DNA of 38,282 nucleotides from a bacterium (GTDB lineage Bacteria > Margulisbacteria > Marinamargulisbacteria > GCA-2716485 > GCA-002719695). The position numbers were made by a program, and so were the translations under genes. The notes under the pieces were generated by a model. It was not told the DNA's origin and did not search any database. It saw only the letters and a list, made by a program, of their open reading frames with translations. Positions 27,627 to 30,745 of the stretch are shown here, in pieces. The stretch covers positions 1 through 38,282 of the forward strand of contig PBBX01000020.1 in NCBI GenBank assembly GCA_002716725.1, given 5' to 3'. Every line of letters starts with the position of its first letter. Position 1 is the first letter of the stretch.

Positions 27627-27983
27627 ATGATTAAAAAAATTTTAATTACACTTTGTTTGCTTGTCCCTACGGTGTATTTGTGTATGGTTTTGCTTAATAA
27701 TCAACATCATATTGGTAGTAAAAAAGACTTTGTTAAAAAAGACTATGTTGTAGAAGGGATGACTTGTAAAGGATGTGAATATAAATTAAAGGAAGCTTTA
27801 AATAGTGAGTTTGTATCTGTAGAACTTGTTGATTATGATTCTAAACGTATTGTGTTACATTTGGATCCTTTAAAAATGAATTTAACATTAATTAATAAGC
27901 AGTTATCTAATGATAATTATGTGTTAAAACTACCTTCTAAAGATACATTAAAGGTATTAGATTATCAAATTAAGTACCATTAA
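27627..27983 (+). CDS. membrane-anchored heavy-metal-associated (HMA) domain protein
   Basis: 118 aa. Residues 1-26 form an N-terminal membrane anchor or signal ('ILITLCLLVPTVYLCMVLLN'). Residues about 42-105 are an HMA domain with 'VEGMTCKGCEYKLKEAL', the GMTCxxC metal-binding loop seen in copper and mercury carriers (MerP/CopZ-like). The domain should face the periplasm. The stop overlaps the mlaE start by one base (TAATG), so it is translationally coupled to the lipid-transport genes. A metal carrier at the head of an Mla operon is unusual; what it delivers metal to is unknown. Confidence 0.88.
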   Translation: MIKKILITLCLLVPTVYLCMVLLNNQHHIGSKKDFVKKDYVVEGMTCKGCEYKLKEALNSEFVSVELVDYDSKRIVLHLDPLKMNLTLINKQLSNDNYVLKLPSKDTLKVLDYQIKYH

Positions 27984-28744
27984 TGTTTTATCGATTAGGC
28001 CGTTTTGTTGTTGCTTATTTTGAAGATTTAGGAAAATTAACGTTTTTATCGTTACGGTTTTTTCGATCTATTTTTTCTTCATATAAATTATATCAAAAGG
28101 TTATTCATCAAGTGTATATGTTGGGTATACAATCTTTGCCAATCACGATCATTACCTCTGTTTTTATTGGAATGGCTTTTACATTACAAATTGTTAGAGA
28201 GTTCGAAAAATTTGGAGCTAACTTTATGTTAGGTGGTATTGTGGGGTTAGCTATTTGGAGAGAATTAGCTCCGTTATTAACGGGAGTTGCTGTTAGTGCT
28301 CGTATTGGAGCGGCTATTGCATCTGAATTAGGTACAATGCGTGTTACCGAACAGGTGGATGCGTTAAAGGCTTTATCTCAGGATCCTGTTAAATACTTGG
28401 TGGTTCCTAGAATATTAGCGGTAATGATTATGATGCCTTTGTTGGTTGGGGTAGCCGATGCGGTGGGTTTTATGAGTGGTTTTTTTGTAGGGGTTCCTCT
28501 GGCTAATATTAATCCTAATGCCTATTTTAATTCTGCCATTACGATGTTGCAGCCCTTTGATATTGTTGGGGGTTTAATTAAGGCATTGGTCTTTGGTTTT
28601 TTGATAGGATTAATTGCCTGTTATCAAGGATTAAATGCTAAAGCGGGAGCTAAGGGGGTTGGGATTTCAACAACTCGTGCGGTTGTTAATACTATTATTG
28701 CGATTTTTATTGTTAATTTCTTTTTATCATATGTGTTGTTTTAG
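27983..28744 (+). CDS. mlaE: MlaE/YrbE family ABC permease for phospholipids
   Basis: 253 aa inner-membrane permease of the MCE lipid transporter. Family hallmarks are 'SLPITIITSVFIGMAFTLQ', 'LAIWRELAPLLTGVAVSARI', 'AAIASELGTMRVTEQVDAL' (the EQV/EALxxL coupling segment) and 'VPRILAVMIMMPLLVGVAD'. Five hydrophobic helices. The nine-base gap to the ATPase gene and the one-base overlap with the HMA gene show a single operon. Confidence 0.94.
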   Translation: MFYRLGRFVVAYFEDLGKLTFLSLRFFRSIFSSYKLYQKVIHQVYMLGIQSLPITIITSVFIGMAFTLQIVREFEKFGANFMLGGIVGLAIWRELAPLLTGVAVSARIGAAIASELGTMRVTEQVDALKALSQDPVKYLVVPRILAVMIMMPLLVGVADAVGFMSGFFVGVPLANINPNAYFNSAITMLQPFDIVGGLIKALVFGFLIGLIACYQGLNAKAGAKGVGISTTRAVVNTIIAIFIVNFFLSYVLF

Positions 28745-28753
28745 GATACGTTT

Positions 28754-29488
28754 ATGATTGAGTTATGTCATTTAGCAAAGTCATTTGATGGTAACGATAT
28801 TTTAAAGGATGTTTCTATTTCAATTCCTTTGGGAAAAAAAATTACCATTATTGGTCCATCAGGATCAGGTAAGAGCACGATTTTAAAATTGATTTTGTGT
28901 TTGATAAAGCCTGATTCTGGGAAAGTTCTTGTAGATGGTGATGATATGGCTTTATTAACGGTAGATGATTTATATAAGGTTCGTAAAAAAATTGGCTTGT
29001 TATTTCAGTCTGCAGCGTTGTTTGATTCTATGACAGTAGAGGAAAATGTTGGGTTTTCATTATTTGAATCGGATCATTTATTATCGCAAGAAGACATTCA
29101 CTATAAAATTGATTATGCCTTAGATTTAGTTGAAATGAAAGGATTTAGCCGCATGTACCCTGCTGAGTTATCAGGGGGACAGCAAAAGCGTGTTGCTTTG
29201 GCACGATCTATTATTACCAATCCACAATATCTGCTTTTTGATGAACCAACTACTGGCTTGGATCCGGTTTTATCGACCAGTATTGAAAATCTAATTGTTC
29301 GTATTTCAGATGAATTAAATACAACTGCTATTATTGTAACGCACCAACTATCAACGATTATGAGAACCTCTGATTTAATTTATTATTTGCATGATGGATG
29401 TTTATGTGAGCCTGAAACGTCTCAATCAATTAATACATCATCTAATCCGATTATTTCAGCTTTTATTAATGGCGAATTAGGAACTTAA
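28754..29488 (+). CDS. mlaF: MlaF ABC transporter ATPase
   Basis: 244 aa. Walker A 'GPSGSGKS' at residues 34-41, Q-loop 'GLLFQSAALFDSMTVEENV' (the 'FQ..ALFDS.TV..N' form is typical of MlaF), signature 'ELSGGQQKRVALARS', Walker B 'YLLFDEPTTGLDP', and H-loop 'IIVTHQL'. It powers lipid movement through MlaE and MlaD. The next gene begins right after its stop. Confidence 0.95.
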   Translation: MIELCHLAKSFDGNDILKDVSISIPLGKKITIIGPSGSGKSTILKLILCLIKPDSGKVLVDGDDMALLTVDDLYKVRKKIGLLFQSAALFDSMTVEENVGFSLFESDHLLSQEDIHYKIDYALDLVEMKGFSRMYPAELSGGQQKRVALARSIITNPQYLLFDEPTTGLDPVLSTSIENLIVRISDELNTTAIIVTHQLSTIMRTSDLIYYLHDGCLCEPETSQSINTSSNPIISAFINGELGT

Positions 29489-30745
29489 ATGGATAATGAA
29501 TCTAATAAGTCCCTTGTTGTTGGGGTTACTACGTTTTTAATGTTGGTTGTTTTAGGTGCTTTGCTTATTTGGCAAAGTGATATTTTTCGTAAGGTAACCG
29601 GGTATGAGTTAATAGGGAGGGTTGATCATATTGGTGGTCTTATTGATGGATCTGCGGTTCGATATAGAGGGTATACTATTGGTTATGTAATTAAAATTTT
29701 ACCGACACCTGATCATATTGATGTTCGATTTTTTTTAGATGGATCTATTAAGGTTCCTATTGATTCAAAGGTTAAGATTATGTTTGATGGGTTAGTGGGA
29801 GAAAATTATATTCAAATTGAGCCTGGTTTAAATAAGGATTCTTTTTATCAAGATGGCGATATTGTTGATGGAAAATCTGGTTCTGATTTAGCTAATTTTA
29901 TTGATTTGGGATCTCAAAATTTGATTCAATCAGAAGCTATTTTGAATCATTTAAACTCTTTTTTAACTGATCCTGTTTTATTTGGACAAGTTAAAAGTAT
30001 TATACGAAATATTTATGATATTACGTCTGATTTATCATCGTTAACTAAGGTTGAATTACAAAGCTTACTTGATACGGCGAATCATTCTGTTAGCTCTATT
30101 CAATCTATGATTGATTCTATTAATGATGAGGAATCTTTAGCATTAATTCAGGATTCTATTAAAAATTTTCATGATACATCGCTTGCTTTAGCTCAGTTTA
30201 AAACCTTGAGTGCTGCGTTGTCTGATCCTAAAACCGTTCATACATTGATGAGGATTATTGAGAATTTGGAGCAAGTATCGACGGATTTAGAAGGTTTTAT
30301 AGGTGTGGTAGGTGATGGGTCACCATTTGGTATGTTTAATGATATTAAATTGAGTACCAATACACATGTTGCGTATGCACCAACGATATCTAAAGGCTAT
30401 TTTGATACCGTGTTTGGTGTGGATAAAGGACGTTTTGGTTTGATTGGAGGACTAGGAAATCGATTTGGTGATATTACGTTTCAGCACTTTCAACAGTCCT
30501 ATCGTTTTTCATCTTTATTTCGATCTCGTTTTGGGATAATTTATAAAACAGAAGGGATTGGTCTTGATTTTTATCCTAGAGATGATTTAACGGTGTCTGC
30601 GAGTCTTTATGACTTTAATAATCGTTATTTTAGTTTATCAACAGCTTATGATTTAAATGATTATTTAAATTTAGAGCTTATGTATCGTAAAGATTCTATG
30701 CTTGATCAAGGGGGTGTTGATTTAGGGGTTAGTTTGGATCTTTAA
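29489..30745 (+). CDS. mlaD: MlaD (MCE) protein with predicted C-terminal outer-membrane beta-barrel
   Basis: 418 aa, over twice the E. coli MlaD length (183). Residues about 8-30 are the inner-membrane helix. About 37-118 is the MCE domain ('GRVDHIGGLIDGSAVRYRGY', 'FDGLVGENYIQIEPG'). About 130-275 is a long helical, coiled-coil-like stretch. From about 290 to the end come roughly ten short amphipathic beta strands with aromatic ends ('RFGLIGGLG', 'GIGLDFYPRDDLTVSASLYD', 'LNLELMYRKD', 'GVDLGVSLDL'). Long MlaD proteins with a C-terminal barrel forming an inner-to-outer-membrane bridge have been described in Veillonella; this layout fits, and no mlaA, mlaB or mlaC is present. The barrel is inferred from pattern. 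Confidence 0.88.
   Translation: MDNESNKSLVVGVTTFLMLVVLGALLIWQSDIFRKVTGYELIGRVDHIGGLIDGSAVRYRGYTIGYVIKILPTPDHIDVRFFLDGSIKVPIDSKVKIMFDGLVGENYIQIEPGLNKDSFYQDGDIVDGKSGSDLANFIDLGSQNLIQSEAILNHLNSFLTDPVLFGQVKSIIRNIYDITSDLSSLTKVELQSLLDTANHSVSSIQSMIDSINDEESLALIQDSIKNFHDTSLALAQFKTLSAALSDPKTVHTLMRIIENLEQVSTDLEGFIGVVGDGSPFGMFNDIKLSTNTHVAYAPTISKGYFDTVFGVDKGRFGLIGGLGNRFGDITFQHFQQSYRFSSLFRSRFGIIYKTEGIGLDFYPRDDLTVSASLYDFNNRYFSLSTAYDLNDYLNLELMYRKDSMLDQGGVDLGVSLDL

Follow-up and report, generated by a model that had tools for sequence, protein, structure and literature searches.

The window analyzed here, a stretch of 38,282 nucleotides, corresponds to one contig of a 1.26-Mb genome in 40 contigs that is 81% complete, and its G+C content is 33%. 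Four genes follow one another on its forward strand. They encode a small heavy-metal-associated (HMA) domain protein, the lipid ABC transporter permease MlaE, the ATPase MlaF, and a long MlaD, which is the sole MCE protein found in the genome at its 81% completeness (Table 1). The stop codon of the HMA gene overlaps the start codon of mlaE (TAATG), and the start codon of mlaD directly abuts the stop codon of mlaF. Because of these two junctions, the four genes appear to form a single operon, with the HMA gene as its first member. An exonuclease gene lies downstream of mlaD in convergent orientation.

Table 1. Genes of the mlaEFD locus and parts of the long MlaD (window positions)
Feature	Positions	Strand	Evidence
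HMA (heavy-metal-associated) small protein with N-terminal membrane helix and CxxC-type motif	27627..27983	+	Pfam HMA E=8e-6
mlaE, lipid ABC transporter permease	27983..28744	+	Pfam MlaE E=1.4e-77; TIGR00056 above cut-off
mlaF, ATPase	28754..29488	+	ABC_tran E=1.7e-34; top NCBIfam match is MlaF, under the equivalog cut-off
long mlaD, whole gene	29489..30745	+	ATG at 29489, stop ends at 30745, 418 aa
MlaD N-terminal inner-membrane helix, residues about 9-27	29513..29569	+	hydropathy maximum 2.8
MlaD MCE domain, residues 38-113	29600..29827	+	PF02470 above cut-off
MlaD helical section, residues 131-285 (155 residues)	29879..30343	+	alpha periodicity of residues 131-275
MlaD C-terminal domain, probable ten-stranded barrel, residues 286-418	30344..30742	+	beta alternation, ten two-faced strands, profile

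The HMA gene precedes mlaE in three genomes (G001, G002, and G003), which belong to this genus and family only, and no such gene was detected beside mlaE in the more distant relatives inspected. An HMA-domain membrane protein at the head of an mlaEFD operon may hint at a connection between metals and lipid transport. At the other end of the window (positions 115 to 2142), a 675-aa protein with S-layer homology (SLH) domains represents a possible envelope-to-wall attachment protein.

The domain order of MlaD agreed with the initial annotation, which had described an inner-membrane helix, one MCE domain, a long helical section, and about 130 residues of alternating strands. The mean Kyte-Doolittle hydropathy reached 2.8 at residues 9 to 27 (approximate limits), and MlaD contains no other such stretch. 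A single Pfam MlaD/MCE domain was detected (E=2.5e-14, residues 38 to 113). The top NCBIfam matches were MlaD and the mycobacterial Mce family, both of which scored under the curated cut-offs. In the family alignment, residues 131 to 275 showed a strong amphipathic periodicity of the alpha type (100 degrees; z=8.3) and strand periodicity was absent; if the helical section formed one continuous helix, its length would be about 23 nm. The MCE part and the helical section together matched E. coli MlaD, mycobacterial Mce1, PqiB, YebT, and entry 13hr in the PDB, the last of these over profile residues 2 to 264.

For the C-terminal domain, hydrophobicity was averaged over an alignment of 35 homologues from related genomes. 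Residues 286 to 418 showed a 180-degree (beta) alternation (z=4.3, p<=0.001; 0 of 1,000 permutations were as high) and no helical periodicity. In the single sequence, the alternation was weaker (z=2.2, p<=0.02); the family alignment, rather than the single sequence, is what makes it solid. Ten strand-like segments could be placed in this domain (residues 287-296, 303-312, 315-324, 329-340, 344-353, 355-363, 366-375, 379-388, 392-401, and 409-418); in all of them, one face is more hydrophobic and the other more polar. These segments were chosen by eye on the hydrophobicity profile, and their count is thus a reading rather than the output of a predictor. Aromatic residues make up 16.5% of the C-terminal domain versus 7.7% of the remaining MlaD. 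Among the 35 homologues, G349 was conserved in all 35, Y374 in 34, and G356 in 33. On this evidence, residues 286 to 418 represent a probable outer-membrane barrel.

Strand alternation does not by itself establish a membrane barrel, because it is also seen in the MCE domain (z=2.3), which is a soluble beta fold. The C-terminal domain could instead be a beta domain that stays in the periplasm and attaches to a different outer-membrane protein without being embedded in the membrane, and the outer-membrane location of this MlaD is a prediction from sequence. We consider such a periplasmic domain highly improbable: the C-terminal alternation is stronger than that of the MCE domain and runs through ten successive strands, each with one hydrophobic face, the aromatic content is doubled, and the corresponding domain of Veillonella is found in the outer-membrane fraction (PMC10665443). 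It is also conceivable that the strands do not close within one chain; several chains would then share a larger barrel, or the tunnel would end in a soluble beta structure. Arguments for sharing are Mycobacterium smegmatis Mce1, in which six chains each provide one strand of a six-stranded barrel, and the fused or trimeric barrels proposed by Grasekamp et al. (2023, PMC10665443), and alternation in sequence does not separate a one-chain barrel from a shared one. However, ten strands in 133 residues suffice for a complete one-chain barrel, and the Veillonella parvula domain was modelled as such at high confidence (PMC10665443), so we regard open or shared strands as improbable.

Searches with the C-terminal profile against solved structures returned nothing significant and matched no known barrel, and Pfam holds no model for this domain. 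AlphaFold models of the whole MlaD and of the C-terminal domain alone, built on alignments of two congeners with 70% identity, had mean pLDDT values of 30.0 and 27.5, respectively. They lacked any confident region, the MCE domain itself remaining below 50, and neither favored nor opposed a barrel.

Homologues of MlaD were widespread among relatives, with one copy in each of 39 of the 56 related genomes. All uncut copies were long (open frames of 362 to 467 aa). The C-terminal profile matched a single place in each of 36 of the 56 genomes, always inside the MlaD frame, and the C-terminal domain was conserved over about 30 genera. All relatives inspected have the order mlaE-mlaF-mlaD, within the limits of their contigs; in one of them (G007), an extra open reading frame separates mlaE from mlaF. 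The MCE part and the C-terminal domain were of constant length across relatives, and the helical linker between them ranged between 95 and 183 residues, which would span 14 to 27 nm as one helix. A linker of variable length is as expected for a spacer set by the width of the periplasm. By alignment, the linker was exactly 102 residues long in eleven homologues from outside the class (L018, L021, L022, L024, L025, L028, L030, L031, L048, L049, and L061), compared with 139 to 183 residues within the class.

A C-terminal domain of constant length on a linker of variable length is also what favors a reading of the barrel as an anchor only, in which the lipid would exit laterally from the tunnel at the inner leaflet and nothing would pass through the barrels. 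In line with this reading, the long MlaD proteins of other phyla mostly lack a barrel, and one barrel of ten strands is not wide enough to let a phospholipid through (PMC10665443). The same study points out, as a difficulty for the bridge, that rings of six barrels have so far not been described. We found no evidence against an anchor-only role, which is a variant of the bridge explanation that differs in the last step alone, and we hold the chances of its being correct to be about even.

The initial annotation had reported that no mlaA, mlaB, or mlaC gene lies nearby and had left mlaE and mlaF, directly upstream, unmentioned; the first part was borne out. The genome encodes a single STAS_2 domain (the MlaB fold), which lies on contig C30 and not on C20, the contig of the window. 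The genome search for MlaA and MlaC that the annotation had called for yielded no match here, and none in the 39 MlaD-encoding genomes either. Their absence is not absolute for this genome, because it is 81% complete, and it holds in all 39. TamB likewise had no match in this genome, with detection weak even in a congener. A classical six-component Mla system, which combines a short MlaD with MlaA, MlaC, and an adjacent MlaB, was not found in this genome at its 81% completeness. LpxC and two Omp85-family proteins are encoded in the same genome, and they indicate a cell with lipopolysaccharide (LPS), an outer membrane, and the machinery to insert barrels into it.

A separate pattern was observed in another family of the same phylum (f18). 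All eight of its genomes (G027, G030, G033, G036, G039, G042, G045, and G048) lacked matches to MlaD, MlaA, and MlaC; LpxC was found in seven of the eight, and several are >90% complete. This family appears to be an LPS-making group that has lost the known Mla routes.

Within the class, MlaD was found in 18 of 27 genomes (long wherever uncut), and none of those 18 encoded MlaA. MlaA and MlaC were found only in two genomes, G009 and G014, and MlaD was undetected in both. In G014 (L087:9632-13283), mlaA and mlaC are consecutive and are followed by a gene for an HAE3/MMPL-type RND transporter. G009 (L089:4-3101) has the same kind of RND gene behind mlaC, and its mlaA is at the end of another contig (L088). 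The mlaA/mlaC contig of G014 also carries a MiaB-type gene that is 50% identical to the MiaB-type gene of the window, which fits genuine membership of G014 in the class; transfer or contamination may also account for it. We tentatively suggest that the long MlaD and the MlaA/MlaC route are alternatives in this class and that an MlaA-MlaC shuttle powered by an RND transporter replaces the MlaEFD bridge in these two members, an idea that we consider doubtful. Statistically, the case that MlaD and MlaA exclude each other is not strong, as it depends on two genomes and would arise by chance in about 9 to 10% of cases by simple counting. According to Grasekamp et al. (2023, PMC10665443), the diderm Terrabacteria lack MlaABC altogether. 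If the class belongs to the diderm Terrabacteria, G009 and G014 would be exceptions to that statement.

The closest counterpart of this MlaD is that of V. parvula, to which the initial annotation had likened it. The V. parvula protein is 419 aa long and consists of a transmembrane helix, one MCE domain, about 150 helical residues, and a C-terminal ten-stranded barrel that was modelled at high confidence; MlaA and MlaC are absent from the organism (PMC10665443). The barrel by itself is recovered in the outer-membrane fraction, and lipid-asymmetry phenotypes are seen in mla mutants (PMC10665443). Compared by description, the two proteins are alike in length (419 versus 418 aa), in domain order, and in the ten strands predicted for each, and both organisms are LPS-making diderms with MlaEFD only. 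The modelled tunnel of V. parvula measures about 23.5 nm, with a periplasm of 24.2 nm (PMC10665443), which compares with about 23 nm for the helical section here. The loci differ in their neighbors: no tolC or tamB gene follows mlaD in the window, and the HMA-domain gene precedes mlaE instead. The likeness is thus supported by length, domain order, and the MlaEFD-only gene set, and the present MlaD matched in every feature compared, which makes it a well-supported further example of the already described Veillonella type.

Other MCE proteins resemble it in part. E. coli MlaD, which works in MlaFEDB together with MlaA and MlaC, shares the transmembrane helix, the MCE domain, and the partners MlaE and MlaF; at 183 aa, however, it has neither the long helix nor the barrel and requires MlaC and MlaA. 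M. smegmatis Mce1 (8fed, 8fee, and 8fef) likewise continues from an MCE domain into a long helical tunnel, as judged by profile matches to its PDB chains, but it is a heterohexamer of six distinct chains, none of which has a complete barrel. E. coli PqiB and YebT/LetB, which gave weak profile matches, are also MCE proteins that bridge the periplasm; unlike the MlaD described here, they have several MCE domains per chain and no C-terminal barrel and are not partners of MlaE and MlaF.

Gene order, domain order, the periodicities of helix and strands, the conservation of the C-terminal domain, and the lack of MlaA and MlaC in the genomes searched, all directly observed, point to the MlaD of a minimal three-gene MlaEFD transporter. 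Very probably, this transporter serves an LPS-making diderm as a lipid bridge between the two membranes that operates without MlaA and MlaC. By analogy with E. coli and Veillonella, from which we infer the hexamer, the tunnel, the insertion of the barrels in the outer membrane, the lipid substrate, and the direction of transport, six MlaD chains would sit on MlaE2F2 through their N-terminal helices and the ring of MCE domains. Their long helices would form the wall of a hydrophobic tunnel that spans the periplasm and is held in the outer membrane by the C-terminal ten-stranded barrels. A single protein could then carry a phospholipid from one membrane to the other, with no need for MlaA or MlaC. 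The most likely direction would be from the outer to the inner membrane, as in other Mla systems.

The extension of the Veillonella-type MlaD to this lineage, which the initial annotation had anticipated, stands in that the protein is conserved across the phylum. It is a small step, since Grasekamp et al. (2023, PMC10665443) have already reported barrel-bearing long MlaD proteins as ancestral and as widespread among the diderm Terrabacteria. The view of a one-protein bridge as the ancestral state is the reading of the same study and is not drawn from this gene. The present data add a whole, mostly unstudied class, together with its phylum, to the case for a one-protein MlaEFD bridge in most diderms, a simpler system proposed as ancestral. 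In addition, the linkers of 95 to 183 residues are a natural variation on which the model can be tested, as it predicts that the width of the periplasm scales with the length of the linker in these lineages.
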